Positions 15,496 through 31,684 of a DNA stretch of 64,000 bases are shown piece by piece; position 1 is the stretch's first letter, and the number at the start of each line of letters is the position of its first letter. Position numbers and translations under genes: made by a program. Under the pieces are notes generated by a model. That model searched no databases. It was not told the origin of the DNA and saw only the letters and a list, made by a program, of their open reading frames with translations. Source of the stretch: Alphaproteobacteria bacterium MedPE-SWcel (GTDB lineage: Bacteria; Pseudomonadota; Alphaproteobacteria; Rhodobacterales; Rhodobacteraceae); assembly GCA_001874255.1 (NCBI GenBank), contig MPDC01000016.1:1-64000 (forward strand), given 5' to 3'.

Positions 15496-15564
15496 ACGTG
15501 GTGAAGATGGCCACGACGGGGGGCTCCCGCCCGGCTCGATTGCATGGCACATGCAACCTCGCCC

Positions 15565-15592
15565 GTTGGGCCGGGCGCCGCTGACGCGGCGC
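15565..15592. repeat. Palindromic repeat, copy 1
   Basis: GTTGGGC, three bases, then GCGCCGC TGAC GCGGCGC. The same layout with TGTC as the loop recurs at 46383-46410. It lies in the gap 15496-15770, downstream of the amidohydrolase gene. It may be a REP-like element or may act as an RNA hairpin. Confidence 0.45.
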
Positions 15593-15770
15593 AGTCCCGC
15601 CCGGTATCAGCGCTGCGGGCAGAATATCAGGGGGGGGTGACTGGCGCGGCTGTGCAGCCCCGGCCCGCGCGGCCGGCCCGCCCTTGGTCGCCTGTTCCCT
15701 TGCTCCCTGGGCCCTGCGTTGCTACCTCTCTCGGTGTTATCTCCGCAGGCCGCGGACACAGGAGCCAGAC

Positions 15771-16109
15771 ATGACCTCTCAGCCGGATATCGACGCCCAG
15801 ACCCAGATCGAACTGGAGGCAGCCGCCTTTCGTCGCCTGCGCCAACATCTGATGCAAGATCGCACTGACGTGCAGAATATCGACATGATGAACCTCACCG
15901 GTTTTTGCCGCAATTGCCTGAGCCGCTGGTACCAGGAAGCGGCAAATGCGCGTGGCATCGACCTCGGCAAGGACGCCGCACGCGAGTTTTTTTATGGAAT
16001 GAGCATGAGCGACTGGAAAGCCAACTTCCAGACGGAAGCCACGGCCGACAGCCAGAGCGCGTTCAAGCAGGCCTTCGCCGAGAACGCGGGAACCGACAAG
16101 AAGGGCTAG
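15771..16109 (+). CDS. DUF1244 family protein
   Basis: A 112-residue protein of the small DUF1244 family, common in alphaproteobacteria and without an assigned function. The signature is DRTDVQNIDMMNLTGFCRNCLSRWY, with two Cys (FCRNC) and a Trp/Tyr, followed by GKDAAREFFYGMSMSDWKA. GGAG lies 8 bases before the ATG at 15771, which is preferred over an upstream ATG of the same frame. The protein is soluble and helical, with a charged C-terminal tail unlike the conserved core. The neighbours give no functional clue. Confidence 0.88.
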   Translation: MTSQPDIDAQTQIELEAAAFRRLRQHLMQDRTDVQNIDMMNLTGFCRNCLSRWYQEAANARGIDLGKDAAREFFYGMSMSDWKANFQTEATADSQSAFKQAFAENAGTDKKG

Positions 16110-16303
16110 CGCCCTTCGCCTGCGCAATCGGCGACAGGGGCACACGCGTTCGCGAACCGGCCCGAACCGGCGCGGGCTGACGAGGGGCGGCGCGTGCCGA
16201 ACCGATCCCGCCCGGAGCGGCACTGGACCCGCGCAGCCATATGCGTGATTATTGCATCCCCGACTGTGGTGGCAAATCGATCAGGCCCCCCCCTCCAACG
16301 GGA

Positions 16304-16336
16304 TTGGCCTCAAATTCCGAACGGATCTGGACCTAT
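16304..16336 (+). promoter_or_regulatory. Candidate TauR operator upstream of tpa
   Basis: Direct repeats TTGGCCTCAA (16304-16313) and CTGGACCTAT (16327-16336), spaced 23 bp, about 100 bp before the tpa start. The second matches the CTGGAC-YTAA-type motif known for TauR; the first is degenerate. Similar pairs lie before tauR and xsc. The rest of the 328-bp gap 16110-16437 shows no gene. Confidence 0.55.
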
Positions 16337-16437
16337 CTCGCCGAGGCAAATTATCATTTGCTCGCATATGACAGAGTCCGTGCGCCATCCGGCGACGACC
16401 GAGGTTTCAAACAACACGCAAGAAGAAAGGACATGTC

Positions 16438-17835
16438 ATGCACGGCACGTTCACCGACAACGACCTCAGCCATGTGGTTTCCGCCGACAAAGCACATGTC
16501 TGGCACCATCTTGTGCAGCACAAGCCCTTTGAAAGCACCGATCCGCGCATCATCGTCGAGGGCAAGGGCATGCGGGTCTGGGATCAGAACGGCAAGGAGT
16601 GGCTGGATGCGGTCTCGGGCGCAGTCTGGACCGTCAATGTAGGCTATGGCCGCGAAAGCATCGCCAAGGCGGTCTACGACCAGACTCTGAAGATGTGCTA
16701 TTTCGCCCAGGCCGCAGGCTCGGTCCCGGCGGCGCTCTTTGCCGAGAAGCTGATCGAAAAGATGCCGGGCATGAGCCGGGTCTACTATTGCAACTCCGGC
16801 TCCGAGGCGAATGAAAAGGCGTTCAAGCTGGTGCGCCAGATCGCGCACAAGAAATACGGCGGCAAAAAGACCAAGATCCTCTACCGCGACCGCGACTACC
16901 ACGGCTCGACGCTCGCTGCGATGTCCGCCGGCGGTCAGGAAGAGCGCAATATGCAATATGGTCCCTTCGCGCCCGATTTCATCAAGGTTCCCCACTGCAT
17001 GGAATACCGCAAGCACGAGCTGGGGCTGGAGGACCTCTCCGGCGAGGCCTTCGGCATTGCGGCTGCCAATCTCATCGAGGAGGTGATTCTGCGCGAAGGC
17101 CCCGAGACCGTCGGTGCGCTCTGCCTGGAGCCGGTGACGGCCGGTGGCGGTGTCATCGAGGCGCCCGAAGGCTATTGGCCGCGCGTGCAGGAGATCTGCA
17201 AGCAATATGACATCCTGCTGCACATCGACGAAGTGGTCTGTGGCCTTGGGCGCACCGGGACATGGTTCGGCTATCAGCACTACGGCATCAAGCCGGATTT
17301 CGTGACCATGGCCAAAGGTGTGGCCTCCGGCTATGCCGCCATTGCCTGCATGGTCGCCACCGAAGAGGTCTTTGACCTGTTCAAGGATGACCCCTCGGAC
17401 AAGCTGAACTACTTCCGCGACATCTCCACCTTTGGGGGCTGCACGGCAGGGCCTGCGGCGGCGCTGGAAAACATGCGCATCATAGAAGATGAAAACCTGC
17501 TCGAGAACTGTACCGCCATGGGCGCCCGGATGATGGCGAACCTCGCGGCGCTGAAAGAAAAGCATGCCGTGATCGGGGATGTCCGTGGCAAGGGGTTGTT
17601 CATCGGGGCCGAGTTGGTCAGCGATCGCGACAGCAAGGAGCCGGTGGACGAGGCTCTGGCCATGAAAGTCGTCGCCGAGGCGGGCAATCACGGCGTCATC
17701 ATCGGCGTCACCAACCGCTCCGTGCCGGGGCGCAACAACACCTTGTGCTTCAGCCCTGCGCTGATCGCCACCGCCGATGACATCGACAAGATCACCGATG
17801 CCGTGGACAAGGCCCTGACGACCGTCTTCGGCTGA
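16438..17835 (+). CDS. tpa: Taurine--pyruvate aminotransferase
   Basis: Class III PLP aminotransferase of 465 residues that transfers the amino group of taurine to pyruvate, giving sulfoacetaldehyde and L-alanine, the first step of taurine dissimilation. Visible motifs are AVSGAVWTVNVGYGRESIAKAV, VYYCNSGSEANEKAFKL for cofactor phosphate binding, DYHGSTLAAMSAGG, the Asp of LHIDEVVCGLGRTG, and the PLP lysine in VTMAKGVASGYA. The sequence style is that of Tpa rather than omega-amino acid:pyruvate enzymes, and TauR and Xsc downstream support this. AAGAAAGGA precedes the start. Candidate TauR boxes lie upstream and a hairpin follows. GNAT and arsR-permease genes separate it from tauR and xsc. Confidence 0.93.
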   Translation: MHGTFTDNDLSHVVSADKAHVWHHLVQHKPFESTDPRIIVEGKGMRVWDQNGKEWLDAVSGAVWTVNVGYGRESIAKAVYDQTLKMCYFAQAAGSVPAALFAEKLIEKMPGMSRVYYCNSGSEANEKAFKLVRQIAHKKYGGKKTKILYRDRDYHGSTLAAMSAGGQEERNMQYGPFAPDFIKVPHCMEYRKHELGLEDLSGEAFGIAAANLIEEVILREGPETVGALCLEPVTAGGGVIEAPEGYWPRVQEICKQYDILLHIDEVVCGLGRTGTWFGYQHYGIKPDFVTMAKGVASGYAAIACMVATEEVFDLFKDDPSDKLNYFRDISTFGGCTAGPAAALENMRIIEDENLLENCTAMGARMMANLAALKEKHAVIGDVRGKGLFIGAELVSDRDSKEPVDEALAMKVVAEAGNHGVIIGVTNRSVPGRNNTLCFSPALIATADDIDKITDAVDKALTTVFG

Positions 17836-17854
17836 CGCCCATATCACGACCCAC

Positions 17855-17882
17855 AGTCGCCGCAGTGCCATCTGCGGCGACT
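17855..17882 (+). terminator. Hairpin after tpa, possible terminator
   Basis: Perfect 10-bp stem (AGTCGCCGCA with TGCGGCGACT) and 8-base loop, 20 bp after the tpa stop. The T run is weak, so termination may be partial. Confidence 0.5.
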
Positions 17883-18062
17883 TGAATGTGCACCAGGTCC
17901 CTGACAACAGGCAGGACCTGCCTGCACGCGCCTTTTGCGCATCGCCTGACCGAGTGATATCACGCCAGATTGGTCTGGCCGTATTGTTGTCAATTGGCCC
18001 TTTTGACAGATCCGGCATTGCCCCATTGAGGCGGCTCAAAGCGATCTTGAAAGGCCCTTTCC

Positions 18063-18647
18063 ATGTGGATGACTCCAACCGAATTGCGCAGCGCCCGCGT
18101 GACGCTGGCGCCTCTCTCGCAGGATCATTGCGCTGACCTGACGGAGGCTGCCGCCGATGGGGACCTCCATCGCCTGTGGTATACGACCGTCCCGACACCC
18201 GACACCATCGCACAAGAGATCACCCGCCGTCTGGCCCTTCAAGCGGAGGGCAGCATGGTGGCCTTTGCAATCCTGGACGCAGGAGGCCGCGCGGTTGGGA
18301 TGACCACCTATATGAATATCGACCAGAGCAACCAGCGAGTCGAAATCGGCTCCACCTGGTACCGAAAATCCGTACAGCGCACCGGTCTCAATACCGCTGC
18401 AAAGCAGTTGATGCTCGCACATGCGTTTGAGGTCAAAGACGCCATTGCCGTCGAATTTCGCACCCATGTGCTCAACCGGCAAAGCCGGATGGCAATCGAG
18501 CACCTCGGAGCCAAGCTGGACGGTGTTCTGCGGGCTCATAGCCGTATGCCAAACGGGACCATTCGCGACACGGCAGTCTATTCCATCACCGCCCCCGAAT
18601 GGCCGATGGTGCGGGCCAATCTGGATTTCTTGCAGGCCCGCCGCTGA
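18063..18647 (+). CDS. GNAT-family N-acetyltransferase (RimJ/RimL type)
   Basis: A 194-residue acetyltransferase of the type that modifies protein N termini or small amines. It begins with PTELRSARVTLAPLSQDH, typical of the RimJ/RimL group. It continues with VGMTTYMNIDQSNQRVEIGSTWYRKSVQRTGLNTAAKQLML, where the acetyl-CoA pyrophosphate loop lies, and VEFRTHVLNRQSRMAIEHLGAKLDG, the classic asparagine-containing helix. It sits between tpa and the permease-arsR pair; a role in taurine metabolism is not evident. The 227-bp gap upstream holds the tpa hairpin. The substrate is unknown. Confidence 0.85.
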   Translation: MWMTPTELRSARVTLAPLSQDHCADLTEAAADGDLHRLWYTTVPTPDTIAQEITRRLALQAEGSMVAFAILDAGGRAVGMTTYMNIDQSNQRVEIGSTWYRKSVQRTGLNTAAKQLMLAHAFEVKDAIAVEFRTHVLNRQSRMAIEHLGAKLDGVLRAHSRMPNGTIRDTAVYSITAPEWPMVRANLDFLQARR

Positions 18648-18816
18648 TCTCTGCCGCCCCTGCAGACCGTGTCAGCTCCCGGGTGGAGTTCGCACGGGTT
18701 GCATCCAGTGTCATGGGCCGTTCATGCGGAAATTGCCTCTGCACCCGATGAAAGGTGCAGAGGTTCGTCGGACCCAAGGCGCCGAGGCAGGCACCTTGCC
18801 TCAGCGAAGACAGGTG

Positions 18817-19863
18817 TCACAGCATCTGGAACACCACTCCCGACAGGATCGCACCCGACACGCCCAGCCCCAGATAGGTGGCAAAGACCCGGGGTTTGAC
18901 CAGCGACCAGACGGCGGCCATGGCGGGAATGGAGCTGACGGCGCCGGCGATCATGAAGGCCAGCGCAGCCCCGGCGCTCATGCCCTGGGTCATCAGACCG
19001 GCAAGCAGGGGCGGGGCAACATAGGAGTTCAGATAGGCGGGCATGCCGACCACGGCGGCGATGGCGATCGGCACAATGCCGTCTCCGCCGACCAATGCCG
19101 CGATCCACTCCGGTTTGACATAATGCACCAGCAGCGATTCCAGAACATAGGCGAAGGCGAGCCATTTGAGCAAAAACAGACCGTTGGTGACGAACTCTCT
19201 GCGGAAGGTCGCCCGGCGTTCTTCCTCCTGCCAGAACCGCCAGTTCGGACGCTCGTCCGTCTTGGACGGGCCGCAGCCGCAACAGCTTTTGACCGGTTCC
19301 TTGCGCAGGGGTTGGGCAAACATTCCGCCACTGCGCAGGGCTTTGATCACGAAACCTCCGAAGAGGCCCAGCGATACCGCGCTCACGGCTTTGGCGATGG
19401 CAAAAGGCCAGCCCAGGGCCGCGGCAGTAATCAGCAGCGTCGGCGGATCGATCAGGGGCGAGGACAGCCAGAACGCCATGACCGCCGACAGGGGGGCGCC
19501 AAGCGCCAGTAGACCGGCGATGAACGGAATGACTTCGCAGGAGCAAAAAGGAGCCAGCCCGCCCAAAAGGGCCGCGAAAAAGATCATCCGCATTTCGCGC
19601 CCGACAAAGGCGCGGGCGACCATGGCCTCGGCTCCGGTGGCCTTGAGAAAGGCCAGAAGGGTCACCGCGAAGAGGATGTATTTCGATGTGGTCGCCAGCG
19701 CCTGCGCGGTAAAGGACAGCACGGACCGGATATTGTCCGGATCGATCAGCGCCACCGCCGCAAGGATCAGCAGGCCGATGGTCCATGGGCTTTGCAGCCA
19801 GTCCAGGGCCACCCGCACGGCCCCCGGCATCCGAGAGCGGGGAGAATGGGAGACATCAGCCAT
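18817..19863 (-). CDS. ArsP/SO_0444-type permease (metal or organoarsenical efflux)
   Basis: A 348-residue inner-membrane permease of the PF03773-like group, with about eight membrane segments. Diagnostic motifs are GLAPFCSCEVIPFIAGLLALGAP with the C-x-C pair, WLSSPLIDPPTLL, and in the second half GMPAYLNSYVAPPLLAGLMTQGMS. A cytoplasmic loop in the middle carries a cysteine cluster (KSCCGCGPSK), suggestive of metal binding. Family members export trivalent organoarsenicals or Cu/Zn; the substrate here is undecided. The ATG at 19863 overlaps the arsR stop by 8 bases, giving a two-gene operon. A TTG at 19872 is a less likely start. Confidence 0.85.
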   Translation of the reverse strand: MADVSHSPRSRMPGAVRVALDWLQSPWTIGLLILAAVALIDPDNIRSVLSFTAQALATTSKYILFAVTLLAFLKATGAEAMVARAFVGREMRMIFFAALLGGLAPFCSCEVIPFIAGLLALGAPLSAVMAFWLSSPLIDPPTLLITAAALGWPFAIAKAVSAVSLGLFGGFVIKALRSGGMFAQPLRKEPVKSCCGCGPSKTDERPNWRFWQEEERRATFRREFVTNGLFLLKWLAFAYVLESLLVHYVKPEWIAALVGGDGIVPIAIAAVVGMPAYLNSYVAPPLLAGLMTQGMSAGAALAFMIAGAVSSIPAMAAVWSLVKPRVFATYLGLGVSGAILSGVVFQML

Positions 19864-20179
19864 CGTTGGCAACTTTCGATTTGAGCCCGCCGTCCGCGTC
19901 CTGACAGCATTCGCTGAGGATAAAACCCGCGAGACGTTCGAGGTGTGTGAAACTGGCCCGGCAGACGATGGTCCGGCCGACTTTTTCCTGCGAGACCACC
20001 TCGGCCGCAGACAGGAATTTCAGATGATGGGCCAAGGTTGACGCGGCAATTCCGGTGCGGTCGCGGATTTCGCCCACCGTGAGCCCGCCTTCGCCCGCCC
20101 GGACCAGTTTCCGCAGCACGTCGAGTCGCGCCTCGGACCCCATGGCCGCAAAGCCCTGTGCAGCAAGAGATGGATTCAT
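19856..20179 (-). CDS. ArsR-family metalloregulator
   Basis: A 107-residue winged helix-turn-helix repressor. The core AAMGSEARLDVLRKLVRAGEGGLTVGEIRDRTGIAASTLAHHLKFLSAAEVV contains the HTH with the THxHHLK-type recognition helix. Near the C terminus is an ECCQD cysteine pair that could bind metal, although the classical CVC motif in the recognition helix is absent. The ATG at 20179 follows GGAGG. It is coupled to the permease and probably represses the pair, binding the palindrome at 20201-20216. Expression should rise when the effluxed metal or metalloid is present. Confidence 0.88.
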   Translation of the reverse strand: MNPSLAAQGFAAMGSEARLDVLRKLVRAGEGGLTVGEIRDRTGIAASTLAHHLKFLSAAEVVSQEKVGRTIVCRASFTHLERLAGFILSECCQDADGGLKSKVANDG

Positions 20180-20200
20180 GTTTGCCTCCACTTTGATTCG

Positions 20201-20216
20201 ATAAAACTAGTTATAT
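20201..20216. promoter_or_regulatory. Candidate ArsR operator
   Basis: Near-perfect 16-bp palindrome ATAAAACTAGTTATAT (one mismatched pair), 22 bp upstream of the arsR start. AT-rich ATA...TAT dyads are typical operators for this family. Its position fits autorepression. Confidence 0.55.
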
Positions 20217-20325
20217 GGTTTATTATGATCTCTCGCAAGGGGCCAGACGCGCAGGCCCCGCTTCAGGTTTAACCTCTTATTCTACCGGGGCAAAAAAGGG
20301 CATTTCAGAAATCCTTCGCCGAGGA

Positions 20326-20357
20326 CACGGTCCAGATTGCCTTTGGGATAAGTCCAG
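20326..20357 (-). promoter_or_regulatory. Candidate TauR operator upstream of tauR, reversed
   Basis: On the minus strand, CTGGACTTAT (20357-20348) is followed 22 bp later by CTGGACCGTG (20335-20326). The spacing equals that of the pair upstream of xsc. The nearer box is only 14 bp from the tauR start codon, a position suited to autorepression. The orientation points left, toward arsR. Confidence 0.65.
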
Positions 20358-20371
20358 AATACCCTCCCGGC

Positions 20372-21838
20372 ATGGCAATCTCCGTGGAAACCTTCTTTCT
20401 CAATCCTGATGCCCAGGGCACGCTGCAGGCGCAGATCCAGGAAATGATCGCTGGCGGTATTCTGTCGGGTCGATTTCGGGCCGAGGAAAAACTGCCCTCC
20501 TCGCGCAAACTGGCCGCCCACCTGGGGGTCAGCCGCATCACGGTGACCCTCGCCTATACGGAACTGGTCGCGAATGACTACCTTGCCGCCCGCGGCAGGT
20601 CCGGTTTTTTCGTGTCCGGGACTGCGCCGGTGCCGCCGTCCTTTTCGCCGACGGAAAAGGTCGAAGAGACGGTCGACTGGGACCGCACCATTACCCGGAC
20701 CTTCACCGGAGGAGACACACCACGCAAACCGCAGGACTGGCGCAGCTATCGGTATCCGTTCATCTACGGACAGGCCGATGCCACCCTGTTTGACCACGCC
20801 AATTGGCGGCTCTGTGCGCTGCGGGCGTTGGGCCAGAAGGATTTCGCCGCCATGACCGGGGACTACTTCGACCAGGATGATCCTCTTCTGATCGAATACA
20901 TCGCCCGGCATACCCTGCCCCGCCGCGGGATCATTGCGCGCCCCGAAGAGATCCTCATCACGCTGGGCGCCCAGAACGCGCTGTGGATCGTGGGGCAGCT
21001 GCTGTTGCAAGAGGGCCGCAAGGCCGCGATCGAGGACCCGTCCTATTATACGCTTCGCGATCAGCTGGGCCACACAGGCTGTGCCCTGGATGTCATCGGG
21101 GTGGACAGCGACGGCCTGCCACCGGACCAGATCGCAGGTGACACCGATGTGATCTTCACCACCCCGAGCCATCAGAGCCCGACCACCGCCACTATGCCGA
21201 TGGCCCGGCGCAAAGCTCTGCTGGCGCGCGCACATGATATCGGCGCTCTGGTGGTCGAGGATGACTACGAGTTCGAAATGTCATTTCGCGCCCCGCCCTC
21301 TCCTGCGCTGAAATCCATCGATAGCGAGGGTCGGGTGATCTATCTCGGCAGCTTCTCGAAATCGCTGTTTCCAGGTCTGCGGCTGGGGTATCTGGTCGGC
21401 TCCGAGCCGTTTATCCGGCAGGCTCGGGCCCTGCGCGCAAATGTGCTGCGGCACCCGCCCGGCCATATTCAGCGTACGGTTGCATATTTCCTGTCGCTTG
21501 GTCACTACGACGCCCAAATTCGCCGCATGGCGCGGGTCCTTCAGGAACGCCGCGGGGTTCTGGAGGAGGCGATATCGACACACGGGCTCTCGCCTGCTAA
21601 CAGCAGCCTCTATGGCGGCTCGTCGCTTTGGATGAAAGCGCCAGAGCATGTGGATATGGGCCGGGTCGGCACGGCACTCCGTGCCCAAGGTGTGCTGATA
21701 GAGCCCGGCGCGCCATTTTTTGCGGCACAGACCCGGCAGCATAATTTCTACCGGCTGGGATATTCGTCCATCGCCAGTGAACGTATACCTCAAGGCGCCG
21801 CACATGTGGCAAACGCCATTCGCGCTGCGCGTCCCTGA
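20372..21838 (+). CDS. tauR: TauR-type MocR/GntR transcriptional regulator
   Basis: A 488-residue MocR protein. The N-terminal GntR winged helix is at about residues 15-80 (LPSSRKLAAHLGVSRITVTLAYTELVANDYL). A fold-I aminotransferase-like domain follows, with IEDPSYYTLRDQLG, VVEDDYEFEM and the PLP lysine in YLGSFSKSLFPGLRLG. In Rhodobacter capsulatus, TauR activates tpa in response to taurine. Location next to tpa and xsc, plus repeat pairs upstream of tpa, tauR and xsc, support the same role here. It reads in the same direction as its targets. The 193-bp gap to xsc carries a further operator pair. Confidence 0.9.
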   Translation: MAISVETFFLNPDAQGTLQAQIQEMIAGGILSGRFRAEEKLPSSRKLAAHLGVSRITVTLAYTELVANDYLAARGRSGFFVSGTAPVPPSFSPTEKVEETVDWDRTITRTFTGGDTPRKPQDWRSYRYPFIYGQADATLFDHANWRLCALRALGQKDFAAMTGDYFDQDDPLLIEYIARHTLPRRGIIARPEEILITLGAQNALWIVGQLLLQEGRKAAIEDPSYYTLRDQLGHTGCALDVIGVDSDGLPPDQIAGDTDVIFTTPSHQSPTTATMPMARRKALLARAHDIGALVVEDDYEFEMSFRAPPSPALKSIDSEGRVIYLGSFSKSLFPGLRLGYLVGSEPFIRQARALRANVLRHPPGHIQRTVAYFLSLGHYDAQIRRMARVLQERRGVLEEAISTHGLSPANSSLYGGSSLWMKAPEHVDMGRVGTALRAQGVLIEPGAPFFAAQTRQHNFYRLGYSSIASERIPQGAAHVANAIRAARP

Positions 21839-21913
21839 AACCAGAGAACCCGGACCTCGCATCGGCGGTGGCGCTCCCCTCCTGCGGTCTCTGCACATTG
21901 AACCAAAGGCACA

Positions 21914-21945
21914 CTGGCCCTACCGGGCAGACAAACTGGCCCTAA
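21914..21945 (+). promoter_or_regulatory. Candidate TauR operator upstream of xsc
   Basis: Two nearly identical direct repeats, CTGGCCCTAC (21914-21923) and CTGGCCCTAA (21936-21945), spaced 22 bp and ending 86 bp before the xsc start. They match the repeat unit seen upstream of tpa and tauR with one substitution (A to C at position 5). Confidence 0.65.
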
Positions 21946-22031
21946 CGTTGCGACGAACCGCCGCCTAAACCGGACCAAAGACGATCAGAAGCCGTCGGCA
22001 TTCTCCGCGACTTCAAACGGGAGCCCCCAAC

Positions 22032-23810
22032 ATGCGCATGACCACTGAAGAAGCCTTTGTCAAAACCCTGCAAATGCACGGTATCGAACACGCCTTTGGC
22101 ATCATCGGATCCGCCATGATGCCCATCTCCGACCTCTTTCCCAAGGCGGGCATCACCTTCTGGGACTGCGCCCACGAAGGCTCTGCCGGCATGATGGCCG
22201 ACGGCTACACCCGCGCCACCGGCAAGATGTCGATGATGATCGCCCAGAACGGCCCCGGCATCACCAATTTCGTGACCGCCGTCAAAACCGCCTATTGGAA
22301 CCACACGCCCCTCCTGCTGGTGACGCCCCAGGCCGCCAACAAGACCATCGGTCAGGGCGGTTTCCAAGAAGTCGAACAGATGAAACTGTTCGAAGACATG
22401 GTCGCCTATCAGGAAGAGGTCCGCGACCCCTCTCGTGTCTGTGAAGTGCTGAACCGCGTCATCATGCAGGCAAAACGCGCCTCGGCCCCGGCGCAACTCA
22501 ACATCCCACGCGACATGTGGACCCAGATCATCGATGTCGCGATGCCCGCCGTCGTCGAATTCGAGCGCCCCGCCGGCGGTGAGACCGCCCTGGCCCAGGC
22601 CGCCGAGCTGCTGTCGGACGCCAAGAACCCGGTCATCCTCAACGGTGCCGGTGTGGTTCTGTCAAAAGGCGGCATCGACGCCTCCATGGCGCTGGCGGAA
22701 CGGCTCGATGCGCCGGTCTGTGTCGGCTACCAGCACAATGACGCCTTTCCGGGCTCCCATCCCCTGTTCGCAGGCCCCCTCGGCTACAACGGCTCCAAGG
22801 CGGGCATGGACCTGATCCGGGACGCCGATGTGGTGCTGTGCCTCGGCACAAGGCTGAACCCCTTCTCCACCCTGCCCGGCTACGGAATGGAATACTGGCC
22901 CGCGGACGCCAAGATCATTCAGGTCGACATCAACCCCGACCGCATCGGCCTGACCAAGACCGTCTCTGTCGGCATCGTCGGGGACGCAGCCAAGGTGGCA
23001 CTGGGCATCCTCGGCCAGCTCTCGGATAGCGCTGGCGACGCGGGACGTGACGCCCGCAAAGCAAAAATCGCCGATACCAAATCCCGCTGGGCGCAGCAGC
23101 TGGCCTCCATGGACCACGAAGACGACGATCCGGGCACCAGCTGGAACCAGCGCGCCCGCGATGACAAGCCTGACTGGATGAGCCCCCGCATGGCCTGGCG
23201 CGCAATTCAGGCGGCGCTGCCGAAGGAGGCAATCATCTCCTCCGACATCGGCAACAACTGCGCCATCGGCAATGCCTATCCCTCGTTCGAGGCCGGTCGG
23301 AAATATCTGGCGCCCGGTCTGTTCGGTCCCTGCGGATACGGTCTGCCCGCGATCATGGGCGCCAAGATCGGCTGCCCGGACACCCCCGTGGTGGGCTTTG
23401 CCGGCGATGGTGCCTTTGGTATCGCCGTGAACGAGCTGACCGCCATCGGTCGCGAGGAATGGCCCGCGATCACGCAAGTGGTGTTCCGCAACTATCAATG
23501 GGGCGCGGAAAAGCGCAACTCGACGCTCTGGTTCGACGACAATTTCGTCGGCACCGAGCTGGACCAGCAGGTATCCTATGCTGGCATCGCCAACGCCTGT
23601 GGCCTCAAGGGCGTCGTTGCCCGTACCATGGAAGAGCTCACCACCGCCCTCCATCAGGCCATTGAGGACCAGAAGAACGGCACTACCACCCTGATCGAGG
23701 CGCTGATCAATCAGGAGCTGGGTGAACCCTTCCGCCGCGACGCAATGAAGAAGCCCGTCGAGGTCGCCGGAATTTCCGCCGATGACATGCGGCCACAGGA
23801 AGGCGCCTGA
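22032..23810 (+). CDS. xsc: Sulfoacetaldehyde acetyltransferase
   Basis: Thiamine diphosphate enzyme of 592 residues that cleaves sulfoacetaldehyde with phosphate to acetyl phosphate and sulfite, the desulfonation step of taurine and related C2 sulfonates. The ThDP family core is plain: FGIIGSAMMPISDLFPKAGITFWDCAHEGSAGMMADGYTRATG near the N terminus, QNGPGITNFVTAV, and the cofactor-binding segment VVGFAGDGAFGIAVNELTAIGREEWP with NYQWGAEKRN. The sequence is much closer to Xsc than to acetolactate synthase. GGGAG precedes the ATG at 22032. tauE starts 5 bp after the stop and ackA overlaps tauE, so these three genes form an operon. TauR boxes lie upstream. Confidence 0.96.
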   Translation: MRMTTEEAFVKTLQMHGIEHAFGIIGSAMMPISDLFPKAGITFWDCAHEGSAGMMADGYTRATGKMSMMIAQNGPGITNFVTAVKTAYWNHTPLLLVTPQAANKTIGQGGFQEVEQMKLFEDMVAYQEEVRDPSRVCEVLNRVIMQAKRASAPAQLNIPRDMWTQIIDVAMPAVVEFERPAGGETALAQAAELLSDAKNPVILNGAGVVLSKGGIDASMALAERLDAPVCVGYQHNDAFPGSHPLFAGPLGYNGSKAGMDLIRDADVVLCLGTRLNPFSTLPGYGMEYWPADAKIIQVDINPDRIGLTKTVSVGIVGDAAKVALGILGQLSDSAGDAGRDARKAKIADTKSRWAQQLASMDHEDDDPGTSWNQRARDDKPDWMSPRMAWRAIQAALPKEAIISSDIGNNCAIGNAYPSFEAGRKYLAPGLFGPCGYGLPAIMGAKIGCPDTPVVGFAGDGAFGIAVNELTAIGREEWPAITQVVFRNYQWGAEKRNSTLWFDDNFVGTELDQQVSYAGIANACGLKGVVARTMEELTTALHQAIEDQKNGTTTLIEALINQELGEPFRRDAMKKPVEVAGISADDMRPQEGA

Positions 23811-23815
23811 GCCGA

Positions 23816-24583
23816 ATGACGCCTGACCTGCCCTTCTTTGATATGCCGTTTGACATATCGGCAGGTCAGGGCGGATTTCTTGCCGTCGCGCTTTTGGGCG
23901 CGGCGACCATCCGGGGGTATTCCGGGTTCGGCTTCTCGGCGATCTTTATCGTGCTGGCCGCGCTCATGACCAACCCGCTGCCGCTGATCCCGGTGGTCTT
24001 CACCTGCGAGATCGCCATGACAGCGTTCCAGGCCCGCGGGATCCGGTCCCATGTGGACTGGCGCCGTGCGGGCGCACTGCTGGCGGGCGCGGCGCTCGCC
24101 ATCCTGCCCGCCGTCGCGCTGATGGCCCGGCTTGATCCCGGTCAGGCACGGTTGGCGGTCTCGGGTCTGATCCTCTGCCTCAGCCTGTTTCTCCTCAGTG
24201 GCTGGCAGATCCGGCGGCCGATGGGCCCGGTGGGTCATGCCGGGGTCGGAGTGCTGTCCGGCACCGCGAATGCCGCCGGTGTCGGCGGCCTGCCGACAGC
24301 CGCGTTTCTGGCAGCGCAGGGCATGCCGCCCGAGACATTCCGCGCCACGATGATCGTCTTTCTCACCGGGATCGACCTGATGGCGCTGCCGGCCATGTCC
24401 GGGCACGGGCTGGTCACCGGCGAGACCGTGACGGCGGCGATCCTGGCCTTTCCCATTCTCGCCATTGGCGTATGGCTCGGCAGTCGTGGCTTTGCCCGCG
24501 CCGCGCCCTCGGGATTTCGGCGCAAGGTGGTGATCCTGCTGGCGACGCTCGCATGTCTCAATATCGTCAAGGTCCTGGCATGA
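23816..24583 (+). CDS. tauE: TauE/SafE-family anion exporter
   Basis: Integral membrane protein of 255 residues from the TSUP (TauE/SafE) family, with about seven to eight membrane segments. The family's first-repeat motif is visible as AATIRGYSGFGFSAIFIVLAAL, and the second repeat begins HAGVGVLSGTANAAGVGGLPTAAFLAAQ. In this position, directly after xsc, it most likely exports sulfite or a related sulfur compound that would otherwise build up. Its start is 5 bp after xsc and its stop overlaps ackA (ATGA). The transported anion is inferred from context. Confidence 0.88.
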   Translation: MTPDLPFFDMPFDISAGQGGFLAVALLGAATIRGYSGFGFSAIFIVLAALMTNPLPLIPVVFTCEIAMTAFQARGIRSHVDWRRAGALLAGAALAILPAVALMARLDPGQARLAVSGLILCLSLFLLSGWQIRRPMGPVGHAGVGVLSGTANAAGVGGLPTAAFLAAQGMPPETFRATMIVFLTGIDLMALPAMSGHGLVTGETVTAAILAFPILAIGVWLGSRGFARAAPSGFRRKVVILLATLACLNIVKVLA

Positions 24584-25740
24584 CGTCCGGGCGCGATATA
24601 CTGGTCCTGAACACCGGGTCCTCGTCGGTAAAATTCGCCGTATTCGACGCCCAGCTGCGCCCGCGCCTCAGTGGCGTTGCGGAGGGGATCGGCGGCGTAG
24701 GGGCGCTGCGGATTGGCACCACGGAAATGCGCCTCGCACTGCCCGACCATGAGCACGCCCTGTCGGCTGTGCTCTCCAGACTGGCCGCCGAAGGCGCCGG
24801 GCCGGATCAGCTTTTGGCCGTGGCGCATCGGGTGGTGCACGGAGGCATGGAGCTGACGGCGCCCACGGCTCTGACCACGCAGGTGCGCGCCGAAATCGAG
24901 GCCTGCGTGCCCCTGGCGCCGCTCCACAATCCCCACGCATTGTCGGCGATCGACGCGCTCGGCCAACTGGCCCCCGACCTGCCGCAATATGCGAGCTTCG
25001 ACACCGCCTTTCACGCGGATGCACCGGAGGTGGCCCGCCGTTATGCCCTCCCGCCCGAAGCCGAGGCGCTGGGGCTGCGCCGCTACGGCTTTCACGGGCT
25101 GTCCTATGCCGCCTTGTGCCGTCGCCTGCCCGAACTCTCAGAAATGCCCCTGCCCGGTCGACTATTGGCCTTTCATCTGGGCAATGGCGCATCGATCTGC
25201 GCAATCAGGGACGGCCGATCCACCGCCACCACCATGGGCTATTCGCCGCTCGAAGGGCTGACCATGGGCACCCGCGTCGGGAGTATCGACGCGAATGCGG
25301 CGCTCCGGCTGGTCGAGGAACTGGGGCTATCGCGCACCAAGACCCTCTTGAACAAACATTCCGGCCTTGCGGGCCTGTCTGGCGGGATATCCGACATGCG
25401 CGCGTTGGAGCAGGCAGGCACCCCGGAGGCACACTTCGCCATCGATCACTTTTGCTATTGGGCCATACGCCATGGGCACAGCCTGATCGGAGCCCTCGGC
25501 GGTGTGGATGCAATTGCCTTCACCGGGGGCATCGGCGAGCATTCCCGGTTGGTGCGGGCGCGCATTCTCGACGGTTTTGCCTGGCTGGGTGCCACTCTGG
25601 ATGCGGACCGCAACGCGGCAAACGCATCCTGTGTCACCCGCGACGCAGCCCCTGTTCCGGCCTGGGTCATCCCGGCGGAAGAAGAGCGTCAGATCGCCAT
25701 GGATACCCGTGCATTGATTGCCATTAGCAGAGGAGAGTGA
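24580..25740 (+). CDS. ackA: Acetate kinase
   Basis: Cytoplasmic kinase interconverting acetyl phosphate and ADP with acetate and ATP. The 386 residues carry the family signatures ILVLNTGSSSVKFAVFD, VAHRVVHGG, PLAPLHNPHAL, FDTAFH, RRYGFHGLSY, FHLGNGASICAI, LEGLTMGTRVGSID, and AFTGGIGEHSRLVR. Its ATG overlaps the tauE stop. The location implies that acetyl phosphate made by Xsc is used here for substrate-level ATP formation. In many taurine clusters phosphotransacetylase (Pta) takes this place; none is visible in the window. Acetate would then need acetyl-CoA synthetase or a Pta encoded elsewhere. Confidence 0.95.
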   Translation: MTSGRDILVLNTGSSSVKFAVFDAQLRPRLSGVAEGIGGVGALRIGTTEMRLALPDHEHALSAVLSRLAAEGAGPDQLLAVAHRVVHGGMELTAPTALTTQVRAEIEACVPLAPLHNPHALSAIDALGQLAPDLPQYASFDTAFHADAPEVARRYALPPEAEALGLRRYGFHGLSYAALCRRLPELSEMPLPGRLLAFHLGNGASICAIRDGRSTATTMGYSPLEGLTMGTRVGSIDANAALRLVEELGLSRTKTLLNKHSGLAGLSGGISDMRALEQAGTPEAHFAIDHFCYWAIRHGHSLIGALGGVDAIAFTGGIGEHSRLVRARILDGFAWLGATLDADRNAANASCVTRDAAPVPAWVIPAEEERQIAMDTRALIAISRGE

Positions 25741-25823
25741 AGAAACGAATGTCCTGTCATTTTCCAGATTTGCGGAACATACTCACCGCATGAGGCCCAC
25801 AAAAAAGAGAATTGTTTCACCTT

Positions 25824-25870
25824 GCGGGAAATGGGAGAATTGATACACAAATGATGCACGTATTTCCCGC
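25824..25870. promoter_or_regulatory. Long inverted repeat upstream of the YeiH gene
   Basis: GCGGGAAAT (25824-25832) and ATTTCCCGC (25862-25870) form a perfect 9-bp inverted repeat, 29 bases apart. They lie in the 192-bp gap between ackA and the YeiH-family gene. It could be a regulator site or a cruciform; no regulator is assigned. Confidence 0.35.
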
Positions 25871-25932
25871 CACCATATGCGGTCCCTGCGCGGCCCCGTA
25901 AAACCCAGTCAAACCCAGTCAAAGGCCCCCCG

Positions 25933-26982
25933 TTGACCGACAGCACCATAGACGCCCGCCTCAAAGCCCGACTGACCGAGAAGACCACCGCGCTCCGCGC
26001 CCGGAGCAGGGATTTGTTCCCCGGTGTCGCTGTCTCTGTCATCGTGGCGGTGACGGCCCAGTTCCTTGCGGAACATTATGCGACTCCTGCCATGCTGCTG
26101 GCGCTGCTGCTGGGCATCGCCGTCAGTTTTCTCGGCGAAGAAGGCCGCACGGTGACGGGGGTTGCGTTTTCGGCCCGCGCGCTGCTGCGGCTGGGCGTCG
26201 CACTCCTCGGGGTGCGGGTGTCGATGATGGTGCTGGCGGGCCTGGGGCTGCCGCTGATCCTGCTGACTGTCGGGGGCGTGGTGGCGACCATCGCATTCGG
26301 CCTGCTGGTGGCGCGGCTGTTTGGCCACAAGTGGCGATTTGCCCTGCTGACGGCCGGATCGGTCGCGATTTGCGGAGCCTCGGCGGCGATGGCCATCGGT
26401 GCCATCCTGCCCCGCGACGAGAAATCCGAGGAACGGTTGATTTTCACCGTCATGGGGGTCACCGTATTGTCGACCATCGCCATGATCGCCTACCCCATTC
26501 TCGCCCGGTTCATGGAGTTCGACCACATTCAGGCCGGCGTATTTCTCGGCGGTACCATTCATGACGTGGCACAGGTGGTCGGCGCCGGCTTTTCGATCTC
26601 GGAGGAGACCGGCGATACCGCAACGCTGGTGAAACTGATCCGCGTGTCGATGTTGGCCCCGGTTGTGCTTGTGGCCTCGCTGGTGATCCGCGCCCGGATC
26701 AAGGCCCCGACCGAGGGCAAACAGCCGCCGCTGCTCCCCGGCTTCGTCATCGCCTTCATCGCGCTTGCCGCGCTCAACTCCTTCGGCCTGATTCCACAGG
26801 CCCTCAGCGGCTTTCTCAGCACCTGCTCACGCTGGCTGTTGCTGGTCGCCATCGCCGCAGTCGGCATGAAGAGCAACCTGAAGCAGGTGCTCTCGGTCGG
26901 CGGTGCCGCCATCGCGCTGATCGTCATTGAAACGCTGTTTATCGCCACAGTCATACTTGCGGGGATCACGCTCTTGACCTGA
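25933..26982 (+). CDS. YeiH-family (UPF0324) membrane protein, putative sulfate exporter
   Basis: Membrane protein of about 349 residues with roughly ten hydrophobic segments. The family motif region is ARALLRLGVALLGVRVS, followed by AGSVAICGASAAMAIGAIL and FLGGTIHDVAQVVGAGF, all typical of YeiH-like proteins. Some members are annotated as putative sulfate exporters; location between the taurine genes and soeABC agrees with export of sulfate or sulfite. The TTG start at 25933 is uncertain, as no strong ribosome site is visible. The soeA ribosome site lies immediately after the stop, suggesting co-transcription. Confidence 0.85.
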   Translation: MTDSTIDARLKARLTEKTTALRARSRDLFPGVAVSVIVAVTAQFLAEHYATPAMLLALLLGIAVSFLGEEGRTVTGVAFSARALLRLGVALLGVRVSMMVLAGLGLPLILLTVGGVVATIAFGLLVARLFGHKWRFALLTAGSVAICGASAAMAIGAILPRDEKSEERLIFTVMGVTVLSTIAMIAYPILARFMEFDHIQAGVFLGGTIHDVAQVVGAGFSISEETGDTATLVKLIRVSMLAPVVLVASLVIRARIKAPTEGKQPPLLPGFVIAFIALAALNSFGLIPQALSGFLSTCSRWLLLVAIAAVGMKSNLKQVLSVGGAAIALIVIETLFIATVILAGITLLT

Positions 26983-27007
26983 GGCAGAACGATTTAAGGG
27001 AGGCCAG

Positions 27008-29830
27008 ATGACATTCCAGCAACCCGAGGTGGACACCTCGCCGCCGGTCTCGGATGAGATCCGCAAGACGACCTGTTACATGTGCGCCTGCCGCTGCGGC
27101 ATCAACGTGCATATGAAGGACGGCAAAGTTGCCTATATCGAGGGCAACCGCGATCACCCGGTAAACAAGGGCGTGCTCTGCGCCAAGGGTTCTGCGGGCA
27201 TCATGCAGCACAACGCCCCCTCCCGCCTGCGCGCGCCGCTGAAACGGGTCGGGCCGCGCGGCTCCGGCGAATTTGAGGAAATCTCCTGGGAGGACGCGCT
27301 CGACATCGCCCAGGGCTGGCTGCAGCCCCTGCGCAAGGATCACCCGGAAAAGCTCGCCTTTTTCACCGGCCGCGATCAGTCGCAGTCCTTCACCAGTTTC
27401 TGGGCGCAGAATTTCGGCACCTGCAACTATGCAGCCCATGGCGGGTTCTGCTCCGTCAACATGGCCACCGCAGGCATCTACACCATGGGCGGCGCCTTCT
27501 GGGAATTCGGCCAGCCCGACTGGGACCATACCAAACTGTTCCTGCTGTTCGGCGTCGCCGAGGATCACGACAGCAATCCGATCAAGATGGGGCTGGGCAA
27601 GATCAAGGCCCGAGGCACCCGGGTCATCGGCATCAACCCGATCCGCACCGGCTATAACGCAGTGGCCGACGATTGGGTCGGCATCACGCCGGGCACAGAC
27701 GGGCTGTTCATCCTGTCGCTGGTGCATGTGCTGATGAAGGCCGGCAAGATCGACCTCGACTACCTCAGCCGCTATACCAATGCGCCGGTGCTGGTCAATC
27801 AGGACAAGACCAGCCCCGATTATGGCCTGTTCCTGCGCGATGACCATGGCGCGCCGCTGGTGATCAACCGCAAGACGGGCAAGCTGGCCCCCTTTGACAT
27901 GTACGGCGTGCGCCCCGATCTGAACGGCACGCTGGCAATGGGCGAGATCACCCATGTTTCCGTCTTCCGGCTGATGGCGGATCAGTATCTGGACGACGGC
28001 TACGCCCCCGAGGCCGTCGCCGAACGCTGTGGCATCCCCGCCCCGCGCATCCGCGCCATCGCGGCTGAAATCGCCCGCGTCGCCTTTGACGAGTCCTTTG
28101 AGCTGGACCGCGAATGGACCGATTTCCGCGGCGAAACCCACAAGACTATGCGCGGCCGCCCGGTCTCGATGCATGCCATGCGCGGTGTGTCTGCCCACGC
28201 CAACGGGTTTCAGACCTGCCGCGCCCTGCACGTGCTGCAGATCCTCCTCGGCACGGTCGAGGTCCCCGGCGGCTTTCGCTTCAAACCGCCCTACCCGAAG
28301 CCCGCCACCGCGCATCCGCCCCCCCATTGCCGCGTCACCCCCGGCAAACCGCTGGACGGCCCGCACCTGGGGTTCGTTCAGGGCCCGGAGCATCTGGCGC
28401 TCCTCAATGACGGCAGCCCCGCCCGCATCGACAAGGCCTTCACCTGGGAAAACCCGATGTCCAGCCACGGGCTGATGCATATGGTGATTTCGAATGCCCA
28501 TGCCGGTGATCCCTACCGGATCGACACGCTGTTTCTCTACATGGCGAACATGGCGTGGAACTCCTCGATGAACACGCGCGGCGTCATGGACATGCTGACC
28601 GACACCGACGACAACGGCGACTATGTGATCCCGCGCATCATCTACTCGGACGCCTACAGCTCCGAGATGGTCGCCTATGCGGACCTGATCCTGCCGGACA
28701 CGACCTATCTGGAACGGCACGACTGTATCTCGCTGCTCGACCGGCCGATCTGCGAGGCCGATGGCGCGGCGGATGCGATCCGCTGGCCCGTCGTAGAGCC
28801 CGACCGCGACGTGCGCGGGTTCCAGTCGGTGCTGGTCGAGCTCGCCAATCGCATGGCACTGCCCGGCTTCACCCATGCAGATGGCAGCCCGAAGTGGCAG
28901 GATTACGCAGACTATATCGTCAACCACGAACGCAAACCCGGTATCGGCCCGCTGGCCGGGTTCCGGGGCGACGGCAGCGCGGCCGGGCGCGGCGCCCCCA
29001 ATCCGGCGCAGCTGGACAGATACATCGAGAACGGCGGCTTCTTCCTCAAACACATTCCCGAAGAGGCCAGCTACTACAAACCCTGGAACAGGGCCTATCA
29101 GGACTGGGCCGTGGATCTGGGCCTGTTCGACACGCCGCAGCCATATCTGTTCCAGCTCTACGTCGAACCGATGCGCAAATTCCAGCTCGCCGCCGAAGGC
29201 CACGGCGACCGCCAGCCCCCCGACCACCTGCGTCAGCAGATCAAGGACCGCATGCATCCGCTGCCCGTCTGGTACGAGACTGCACCCCATGGTGACACGA
29301 AATTCACCGTCCACGCCCTCACCCAGCGCCCGATGGCCATGTATCACAGCTGGGGCAGCCAGAACGCCTGGCTCCGGCAGTTGCACGGCCATAACCCGCT
29401 CTACGTCCCGACAAAACTGATGCGCGAAACCGGCCTCCAGGATGGCGACTGGGCCCGCGTCACCTCCCCGCACGGCGCGATCACCGTCCCGGTGCTGGAG
29501 ATGGCGGCGCTGAATGAAAACACCGTCTGGACCTGGAACGCCATCGGCAAACGGAAAGGCGCCTGGGCGCTGTCTCCCGACGCGCCCGAAGCCACCCGCG
29601 GCTTCCTGCTCAACCACCTCATCCACGAACTGCTCCCGCCAAAGGGCGACGGTCTGCGCTGGGCCAATTCCGACCCCATCACCGGACAGGCGGCCTGGTT
29701 CGATCTGAAGGTGCGTATTGAGAAGACATCGCCGCCCAAAGACAGGCCGCAAAGCGCCCCCGATCTGCCCGAGATGAAATCCCCCGTCCCTCCCCCCTCG
29801 CAGGATCTTGCATGGAAGGTCGGCTCATGA
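27008..29830 (+). CDS. soeA: Sulfite dehydrogenase SoeA, molybdopterin subunit
   Basis: Molybdopterin-guanine-dinucleotide oxidoreductase of 940 residues. An N-terminal 4Fe-4S site is formed by Cys 23, 26, 30 and 58 (CYMCACRC, then VNKGVLCAKG). The domain order is that of the DMSO reductase family, with a C-terminal dinucleotide-binding domain. No twin-arginine signal is present, so the protein should stay in the cytoplasm, as SoeA does and DmsA-type reductases do not. Followed by an iron-sulfur subunit and a DmsC-like anchor, it forms a SoeABC unit oxidising sulfite to sulfate with electrons to quinone. GGGAGG precedes the ATG. Polysulfide or thiosulfate reductase relatives are possible; the Xsc context favours sulfite. 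Confidence 0.87.
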   Translation: MTFQQPEVDTSPPVSDEIRKTTCYMCACRCGINVHMKDGKVAYIEGNRDHPVNKGVLCAKGSAGIMQHNAPSRLRAPLKRVGPRGSGEFEEISWEDALDIAQGWLQPLRKDHPEKLAFFTGRDQSQSFTSFWAQNFGTCNYAAHGGFCSVNMATAGIYTMGGAFWEFGQPDWDHTKLFLLFGVAEDHDSNPIKMGLGKIKARGTRVIGINPIRTGYNAVADDWVGITPGTDGLFILSLVHVLMKAGKIDLDYLSRYTNAPVLVNQDKTSPDYGLFLRDDHGAPLVINRKTGKLAPFDMYGVRPDLNGTLAMGEITHVSVFRLMADQYLDDGYAPEAVAERCGIPAPRIRAIAAEIARVAFDESFELDREWTDFRGETHKTMRGRPVSMHAMRGVSAHANGFQTCRALHVLQILLGTVEVPGGFRFKPPYPKPATAHPPPHCRVTPGKPLDGPHLGFVQGPEHLALLNDGSPARIDKAFTWENPMSSHGLMHMVISNAHAGDPYRIDTLFLYMANMAWNSSMNTRGVMDMLTDTDDNGDYVIPRIIYSDAYSSEMVAYADLILPDTTYLERHDCISLLDRPICEADGAADAIRWPVVEPDRDVRGFQSVLVELANRMALPGFTHADGSPKWQDYADYIVNHERKPGIGPLAGFRGDGSAAGRGAPNPAQLDRYIENGGFFLKHIPEEASYYKPWNRAYQDWAVDLGLFDTPQPYLFQLYVEPMRKFQLAAEGHGDRQPPDHLRQQIKDRMHPLPVWYETAPHGDTKFTVHALTQRPMAMYHSWGSQNAWLRQLHGHNPLYVPTKLMRETGLQDGDWARVTSPHGAITVPVLEMAALNENTVWTWNAIGKRKGAWALSPDAPEATRGFLLNHLIHELLPPKGDGLRWANSDPITGQAAWFDLKVRIEKTSPPKDRPQSAPDLPEMKSPVPPPSQDLAWKVGS

Positions 29831-29832
29831 CG

Positions 29833-29877
29833 TTTCATCTTTTCTCAAATACCTCGGGGTCCGGGGCAGCGCCCCGG
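29833..29877 (+). repeat. Dispersed intergenic repeat with hairpin, copy 2
   Basis: TTTCATCTTTT, AAATACCTCGGGG and a 7-bp GC hairpin with AGC loop (29861-29877), the same elements as the minus-strand copy at 8-58. It fills the 82-bp gap between soeA and soeB and might modulate the ratio of the two subunits. Confidence 0.6.
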
Positions 29878-29912
29878 TCCCACCCGCGACCCCCAAGCGC
29901 AGGATCATCCCG

Positions 29913-30689
29913 ATGACCGACCTTCCCAGCGCCACCCAGCGCCAGATGGGCCTGGTCATCGACCTCGACACCTGCGTCGGCTGCCAGGCCTGCGTGATCT
30001 CCTGCAAAGGCTGGAACACCGAAAACTATGGCGCGCCCCTGTCGGATCAGGACGCCTATGGCGCAGATCCCGCGGGCACCTTCCTCAACCGGGTGCATTC
30101 CTACGAGGTGCAGCCGGACCATGGCCCGGCCCAACTGATCCATTTCCCGAAATCCTGCCTCCATTGCGAGGACGCGCCCTGCGTCACCGTCTGCCCCACC
30201 GGCGCCAGCTACAAACGCGTCGAGGACGGCATCGTTCTGGTCAACGAAAGCGACTGCATCGGCTGCGGCCTCTGTGCCTGGTCCTGCCCCTACGGCGCCC
30301 GCGAACTGGATCTCGCCGCCGGCGTGATGAAAAAATGCACCCTCTGCGTCGACCGGATCTACAACGAGAACCTCCCCGAAGAAGACCGCATCCCCTCCTG
30401 CGTGCGCACCTGCCCGTCGGGTGCCCGGCATTTCGGGGATCTCGGCGACCCGACCTCCGAGGTCTCGGGGCTGGTCGCCGACCGCGGCGGCATGGACCTG
30501 ATGCCGGAGATGGGAACCAAACCGGTGAACAAATACCTGCCACCAAGACCAAAGGACGGGCTCGCGGCGCAAGGCCATGGCGATATCGACCTCCTCGCGC
30601 CGTTGCTTTCACCCGTTGCGACGGATGCGACCGGGTTCCTAGGATGGCTTGATCGGGCTTTGGACAAACTGCCCGGAGGGGACCACTGA
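29913..30689 (+). CDS. soeB: Sulfite dehydrogenase SoeB, iron-sulfur subunit
   Basis: Electron-transfer subunit of 258 residues with four 4Fe-4S cluster motifs: CVGCQACVISC (Cys 21, 24, 27, 31), CLHCEDAPCVTVCP, CIGCGLCAWSCP, and CTLC with a later CVRTCP. This matches the DmsB/PsrB/SoeB family. No signal peptide is present, consistent with a cytoplasmic catalytic dimer bound to the membrane anchor. The ATG at 29913 is chosen from the family start; an upstream ATG in frame at 29808 would read through the dispersed repeat. The stop overlaps the soeC start (TGATG). Confidence 0.9.
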   Translation: MTDLPSATQRQMGLVIDLDTCVGCQACVISCKGWNTENYGAPLSDQDAYGADPAGTFLNRVHSYEVQPDHGPAQLIHFPKSCLHCEDAPCVTVCPTGASYKRVEDGIVLVNESDCIGCGLCAWSCPYGARELDLAAGVMKKCTLCVDRIYNENLPEEDRIPSCVRTCPSGARHFGDLGDPTSEVSGLVADRGGMDLMPEMGTKPVNKYLPPRPKDGLAAQGHGDIDLLAPLLSPVATDATGFLGWLDRALDKLPGGDH

Positions 30690-31579: not shown

Positions 31580-31624
31580 GGGCTGCCGCGCGGGGGATCT
31601 GAGGGGGGATCTGACGCTTGGGCA

Positions 31625-31656
31625 CGAAAAAGCCCCGCGCAGAACTGGCGGGGCTT
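31625..31656 (-). terminator. Terminator after dapA, possibly bidirectional
   Basis: Stem AAGCCCCGC with GCGGGGCTT and 9-base loop. On the minus strand it is followed by TTTTT, a classical terminator for dapA. On the plus strand it could also end the soeC transcript, though the T run there is weak. Confidence 0.8.
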
Positions 31657-31684
31657 GGTCCGTTTTACCTCGATGGGCCCTGTG

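Follow-up and report, generated by a model that had tools for sequence, protein, structure and literature searches.

Predicted TauR operators upstream of tpa, tauR and xsc in the taurine island of a Rhodobacteraceae genome

Introduction

Taurine is a common marine source of carbon, nitrogen and sulfur. The window analysed here, a stretch of 64,000 nt from the beginning of contig MPDC01000016.1 of Alphaproteobacteria bacterium MedPE-SWcel (the closest named relatives found were Tritonibacter, marine bacteria), carries an island with genes for taurine:pyruvate aminotransferase (tpa), the MocR-type regulator TauR (tauR) and sulfoacetaldehyde acetyltransferase (xsc). An earlier note on this DNA had described pairs of a 10-bp unit upstream of these three genes and had read them as a TauR regulon inside the island. 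Are the pairs operators of TauR, do they stop at the island, and do the differences between their units have a meaning?

TauR control of taurine genes is itself already known, and such regulons have been predicted before. In Rhodobacter capsulatus, TauR is a MocR-type activator of taurine genes acting on direct repeats of CTGGACYTAA, a finding of Wiethaus et al. (2008) as cited by Suvorova and Rodionov (PMC5320631). The same paper predicted alphaproteobacterial TauR regulons in 2016, with tauABC, tpa, xsc, ackA, tauE and tauZ as members and bisC, dmsC and hybA in some Rhodobacterales. What is new here is detail drawn from relatives, among it a fourth site that probably lies elsewhere in the genome, at an operon likely to encode a taurine importer. 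We consider it very probable that the window holds three TauR operators, through which tpa and xsc would be activated and TauR would limit its own synthesis.

Three putative operator pairs in the window

As shown in Table 1, the three direct-repeat pairs were confirmed by direct reading and then recovered by a scan of the window. They were found where the earlier note had placed them, before tpa (spacing 23), tauR (spacing 22, reverse strand) and xsc (spacing 22), and each consists of two direct repeats close to CTGGACYTAA about two helical turns apart. Its view that the CTGGAC core fits TauR also holds, the unit being the TauR consensus cited in PMC5320631. The genes behind the pairs belong to taurine catabolism, as judged by TIGR03457 for xsc and by general family together with conserved gene context for tpa. 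Both the tpa and the xsc pair point at their genes, with the first unit about 90–145 bp 5′ of the start codon at the distances listed. Two features were absent from the earlier note: position 5 is C in the distal tpa unit (TTGGCC) as it is in the xsc units, and agreement of the outer tauR unit with the consensus is limited to its first seven bases (CTGGACC).

For each promoter, the score of its best pair with a spacing of 22 or 23 was reached in 1 (tauR), 0 (xsc) and 0 (tpa) of 2000 dinucleotide shuffles. Among window pairs scoring at least 16 of 20, two had spacing 22 and two had spacing 23, whereas no other spacing in the range 11–44 had more than one. Could the pairs be a functionless similarity, due to chance or shared descent? 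Lone units are near chance, at about twofold (5 matches with at most one mismatch vs 2.4 expected). However, the shuffles, the peak in spacing, the persistence of the units where most flanking DNA fails to align across the set of relatives, and the genome-wide specificity described below leave this explanation a negligible probability.

Genome-wide specificity

Profile R1 was made from 43 sites of relatives, without the window genome and its closest relative, G010. Its alignment (A1) took 43 of 48 sites; the tauR sites of G015, G002, G008, G017 and G024 were left out. R1 was searched over the genome of 4,076,435 bases (4.08 Mb), 150 of 903 first-look candidates being scored and the E-values being rough. 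The only three matches at E≤10 were the xsc, tauR and tpa pairs, with 22.1, 21.3 and 15.9 bits for both units together. By this search, such pairs are rare elsewhere in the genome. No profile match was found in the window 5′ of the YeiH gene or soeA, as the earlier note had observed.

Rarity was also indicated by pattern scans in which as many as three mismatches were allowed. At spacing 22, xsc was the sole match without mismatch and tauR was among four with two mismatches; at spacing 23, tpa was the sole match with at most one mismatch. Further two-mismatch matches lay on contigs C34 and C52 (spacing 22), C20 (spacing 23) and C23, the last of which is treated below.

Conservation in relatives

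The best consensus-score pairs were found at similar distances 5′ of 21 tauR, 13 xsc and 20 tpa genes, window genome included (the tauR start of G027 was moved by hand before alignment). Both units stood out in the alignments, and the rest of the upstream DNA was mostly unconserved across the set. Exceptions were the ribosome-binding words, a few short words that flank the tauR units, and a CCTAAA at xsc. CTGG was kept in the proximal unit of 20/20 tpa promoters, counting the window's own. An excess in spacing was seen at 22 for tauR (14/21) and at 23 for tpa (17/20). For xsc it was spread over 22, 23 and 24 (7, 12 and 8 of 13), partly because of the overlapping downstream CCTAAA word; spacings 29 and 34 reached 6/13.

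We then turned to 80 Rhodobacteraceae loci (Tritonibacter, Phaeobacter, Leisingera, Ruegeria, Shimia and others), which were fetched by tauR, so that nearness of a site to tauR is not independent evidence there. R1 gave 186 matches at E≤5 in 998,177 bases, 175 of them at a tauR, xsc or tpa promoter (76/80, 61/62 and 38/43 promoters, respectively). Of the remaining 11, one (L101) was in the tauR-tauE gap, and the other ten lay directly 3′ of tauR where the contig ended. These ten contigs (L132, L139, L144, L146, L151, L159, L163, L164, L167 and L176), nine of them from Ruegeria, end about 70–210 bp past tauR, at the place where, by analogy, xsc should start; assemblies may break at these points because xsc is repeated. 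In L008, L037 and L101 (G001, L101 probably being the same contig) the gap between tauR and tauE lacks xsc, yet a weakened TauR pair persists there.

The sites also co-occurred with the regulator gene. Among 37 genomes, a site at E≤0.3 was present in 20/20 that encode a close TauR (top match at E≤1e-170) and in 3/17 without one, with one weak match each. Training sites came from 15 of the 20; of the five that gave none, G000, G010, G015 and G020 had 3 matches each and G018 had 2. When assigned by hand, 45 of the 52 matches fell at the three promoters and one in the tauR-tauE gap of G001, which lacks xsc. The other six were elsewhere or without assignment (G017 contig C52, G018, G019, G020 after tauR, G041 and G048). 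In G018 an R1 match (L185, 2199–2232, minus strand) lies directly 5′ of an aminotransferase gene whose product is 29% identical to tpa, resembling the Tpa-related COG161 regulon member of PMC5320631.

TauR protein

The tauR product contains PF00392 (residues 19–81) and PF00155 (residues 164–466), both domains of MocR regulators. Its K330 aligns with K312 of GabR, which we take to be the pyridoxal phosphate (PLP) lysine of that protein, within GSFSKS vs GTFSKS (4n0b, 143 bits). Orthology to R. capsulatus TauR is inferred from gene context and motif.

Another MocR-type paralogue might bind the pairs instead, as a search with the TauR protein yields 11 matches in this genome and MocR motifs are often direct repeats (PMC5320631). 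The sites, however, track close TauR across the 37 genomes, and the unit consensus is the published TauR one (PMC5320631). We therefore regard binding by a paralogue as very improbable. Consensus, specificity in the genome, conservation at the same promoters and co-occurrence with tauR together support the assignment of the pairs to TauR as putative operators.

The predicted tauR promoter

The tauR pair reads away from its gene, with the inner unit 13–15 bases before the ATG in 78/79 promoters. In tauR promoters of spacing 22, TTG follows the outer unit in 75/78, forming the start of a predicted −35 hexamer. A −10-like word follows it by 17 nt (TAnnnT in 56/78, TATAAG in 19 more) and ends 5–7 nt 5′ of the ATG in 78/78. 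A Shine-Dalgarno-like word was found at 2/81 tauR starts vs 62/63 xsc and 44/44 tpa starts. The tauR transcript thus looks leaderless, and because its predicted core promoter is interleaved with the TauR units, autoregulation is suggested; auto-repression is stated for MocR-type regulators (PMC5320631). No description of this tauR geometry was found in the literature searched by title and abstract, most subscription papers being outside that scope.

An ArsR-type regulator gene and an ArsP_1-family permease gene (window 18817–20179, minus strand) are divergent from tauR, and a divergent arsR lies less than 450 bp from tauR in 43/80 loci. This hints at a link of the two genes to taurine or sulfite handling, a link that is absent from the taurine section of PMC5320631. 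The tauR pair could accordingly serve mainly to activate arsR and the permease rather than to autoregulate tauR: it points at arsR as the tpa and xsc pairs point at their genes, and the unmatched tauR promoters (L130, L140, L145 and L162) are all among the 37 loci without such an arsR. However, 33 of these 37 loci still carry the tauR pair, the inner unit keeps its distance to the tauR ATG, and no conserved element appears in the ~65 bp beyond the pair covered by the alignment (the full interval to arsR is 147 bp here). Activation of arsR as the main role is improbable, and autoregulation of tauR is preferred.

Unit types by promoter role

The earlier note had seen C in place of A at position 5 of both xsc units and had suggested a co-varying site class. 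Both units carry C in this genome and in 17 others among 62 xsc promoters, but this is not a general rule for xsc. The distal and proximal bases were AC in 41, CC in 18, and TC, CA and AA in one each, giving C 60 and A 2 for the proximal unit and A 42, C 19 and T 1 for the distal unit. Co-variation of position 5 within the pair is rejected on these counts; only the proximal xsc unit is near-fixed as C. What stands of the suggestion is a weaker, role-linked split of unit types.

Position 7 separates the roles better than position 5. It was C in 62/62 xsc and 44/44 tpa proximal units and T in 65 and 73 of the 79 tauR units, while position 5 was C in 27 and A in 17 tpa proximal units and A in 70/79 for each tauR unit. 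The proximal units of tpa and xsc are CTGGMCC, and the tauR units, inner and outer, are mostly CTGGACT. In the xsc proximal unit, TGG (positions 2–4) and CCTA (positions 6–9) were present in 62/62. A recount with positions 5 and 7 unscored, so that the choice of pair could not favour the outcome, left the result unchanged; as the sequences share descent, the counts are not independent. The role-linked split is the better-supported version of the site-class idea. That the two types act as distinct half-sites, an activating CTGGCCCTAA(C) beside switched-on promoters and CTGGACTTA across the leaderless tauR core promoter, is a tentative proposal that we hold to be rather doubtful.

A third TauR box was considered 23–24 bp 3′ of the proximal unit, with +24 as the best offset at tpa (z 3.4) and likewise at xsc (z 3.2), and was rejected, as a promoter element explains it equally well. 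The signal comes from the conserved CCTAAA at xsc and from TTGTCC-like words at tpa. An exception is the xsc promoter of relative G011, with CTGGCCCTAA-23-CTGTCCCTAA; the upstream pair was set by hand there despite the higher score of this one.

A tauABC-like operon on another contig

The two-mismatch match on contig C23 sits 134 bp 5′ of a gene whose product scores 156 bits against a curated TauA family cut-off of 304 and is thus TauA-like only. Genes for an ABC ATPase and a permease follow by eye. The pair, CTGGCCCCAA-22-CTGGGCTTAT, reads away from the gene. A unit-like word, CTGGTCTTAA, lies about 40 bp 5′ of it (L191, ~6490–6510); close relatives retain this word in slightly altered form.

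Of 19 TauA-like matches, 17 were examined; in 6 of these the assumed start was not a start codon and the upstream stretch was roughly placed. Ten of the 17 upstream regions have a pair reached by only 0–6 of 300 shuffles, and all ten pairs are reversed. An alignment of seven such regions showed the units better kept than most flanks. The tpa site of G022 is shared by two divergent genes, tpa on one side and a tauA-like gene on the other, a layout which may explain the reversed direction. The tauABC-like operon, a probable taurine importer, thus carries a likely fourth TauR site. The part of the earlier note that placed the regulon inside the island probably does not hold, and an island-only regulon is held unlikely, given this pair.

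Genes of the island

The start codon of ackA overlaps the stop of the TauE/SafE-family gene (tauE), which is probably co-transcribed with xsc. The YeiH-family gene, presumably a candidate TauZ, and soeA follow in the same direction, and neither the ackA-yeiH gap nor the yeiH-soeA gap showed anything resembling a promoter or a terminator in a simple scan. The missing pair before either gene is therefore no argument against TauR control. The xsc pair would drive xsc-tauE-ackA and, because of these gaps, probably also yeiH-soeABC. The bisC, dmsC and hybA of PMC5320631 are, judging by their names, probably soeABC here.

The gene tpa lies near tauR and xsc in many relatives. The scan that gave the promoter-like match at tpa (Table 1) found 6 such matches in 15500–32000 vs 2.8 expected. 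Just 3′ of the tpa pair (window 16350–16385), some relatives keep TGTC-N14-GACA by eye, the window itself having TATC, and a few relatives have both arms changed; it could be a promoter part or the site of another regulator.

Table 1. Features of the taurine island (window positions; units of the minus strand are given from high to low).
Feature	Position	Strand	Remarks
tpa operator, distal unit TTGGCCTCAA	16304-16313	+	direct reading, scan
tpa operator, proximal unit CTGGACCTAT	16327-16336	+	111 bp 5′ of tpa start codon
Promoter-like TGGACC-18-TATCAT	16328-16357	+	first hexamer in proximal tpa unit; 9/12; weak, inferred
tpa, taurine:pyruvate aminotransferase	16438-17835	+	name from earlier note and context; NCBIfam general aminotransferase models only
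tauR operator, outer unit CTGGACCGTG	20335-20326	-	direct reading, scan
Predicted tauR −35 hexamer TTGCCT	20337-20342	+	TTG conserved (see text)
tauR operator, inner unit CTGGACTTAT	20357-20348	-	within spacer of predicted tauR promoter
Predicted tauR −10 hexamer TACCCT	20360-20365	+	17 nt past −35, 6 nt before ATG
tauR, MocR-type regulator	20372-21838	+	GntR DNA-binding and aminotransferase-like domains
xsc operator, distal unit CTGGCCCTAC	21914-21923	+	direct reading, scan
xsc operator, proximal unit CTGGCCCTAA	21936-21945	+	direct reading, scan
xsc, sulfoacetaldehyde acetyltransferase	22032-23810	+	TIGR03457 917 bits, cut-off 676
TauE/SafE-family sulfite exporter	23816-24583	+	PF01925
ackA, acetate kinase	24580-25740	+	TIGR00016 301 bits, cut-off 293
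YeiH-family putative sulfate exporter	25933-26982	+	PF03601; TIGR00698 below cut-off; no own TauR pair
soeA, molybdopterin oxidoreductase	27008-29830	+	name from earlier note; NCBIfam general relatives below cut-off; no own TauR pair

Discussion

We propose that a TauR dimer would bind two units of the same direction, separated by some two turns of the helix. In the tpa and xsc pairs, the second unit (CTGGMCCTA) would stand at the upstream edge of the promoter, and TauR with taurine as the presumed signal, perhaps joined to its PLP, may activate tpa and the run xsc-tauE-ackA-yeiH-soeABC. At tauR the units would alternate with the −35 and −10 elements of the promoter from which the leaderless transcript is predicted to start, so that bound TauR may limit its own synthesis. 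The fourth, weaker and reversed pair at the tauABC-like operon would add taurine import to the regulon. The sequence shows the pairs, how well they are conserved, how specific they are and how the promoter-like words are spaced; binding, the signal, the direction of regulation and the extent of the operons are what we infer.

Several observations weigh against this proposal. Orientation differs between the tpa and xsc pairs and the tauR and tauABC-like pairs. One window pair of spacing 34 scores 18, higher than tauR (16) and tpa (17), so that a score without spacing cannot single out all three pairs. Control patterns read backwards matched the genome more often than the forward ones (117 vs 38 at spacing 22, 123 vs 39 at spacing 23), indicating that loose matches are background and only the best ones are meaningful. 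The R1 genome search scored 150 of its 903 candidates, and scores are low for weak sites. With R1, for example, the tauABC-like pair, which came from a loose pattern, reaches only 6.3 bits, and 7/17 TauA-like upstream regions show no above-chance pair. Among relatives the tauR pairs of G015 and G024 are weak, that of G015 being degenerate in one unit, the tauR spacing is 21 in G002, G008 and G017, and 4/80 tauR, 1/62 xsc and 5/43 tpa promoters have no R1 match. The −35 and −10 words of tauR lie in or beside the operator and may belong to it. The link to R. capsulatus TauR was made by context and motif, and the NCBIfam PdxR model NF052282 gives this TauR 329 bits, above its cut-off of 320. Context and motif speak against the PdxR name; automatic annotation may label TauR proteins PdxR.

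Compared with known systems, the motif and regulator type are those of R. capsulatus TauR (PMC5320631). In the window tauR is flanked by tpa and xsc, and all three genes point the same way; the island holds three pairs, and the distant tauABC-like operon has a variant pair. The regulons predicted in PMC5320631 have a conserved motif in common with this one, and their content varies between close genomes. The taurine section of that paper is without a leaderless tauR, an operator interleaved with the promoter or units split by role, though its tables may list sites of close relatives. TauR2, a close TauR homologue with a similar motif, has oppABCDF, TRAP transporters and others in its listed regulon, where tpa and xsc are unlisted (PMC5320631). 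GabR of Bacillus subtilis, which represses itself and activates its targets (PMC5320631), shares the domain plan, the aligned lysine and a direct-repeat operator with TauR. It differs in its ligand (GABA), its motif and its distant sequence.

The analysis gives a tight map of predicted TauR operators for Rhodobacteraceae, in which the role of the promoter sorts out the variable positions of the published consensus, and it predicts simple autoregulation on a leaderless tauR gene. If the two kinds of half-site were real, positions 5 and 7 would set the sign and strength of TauR action and would give these bacteria a built-in order of response to taurine.

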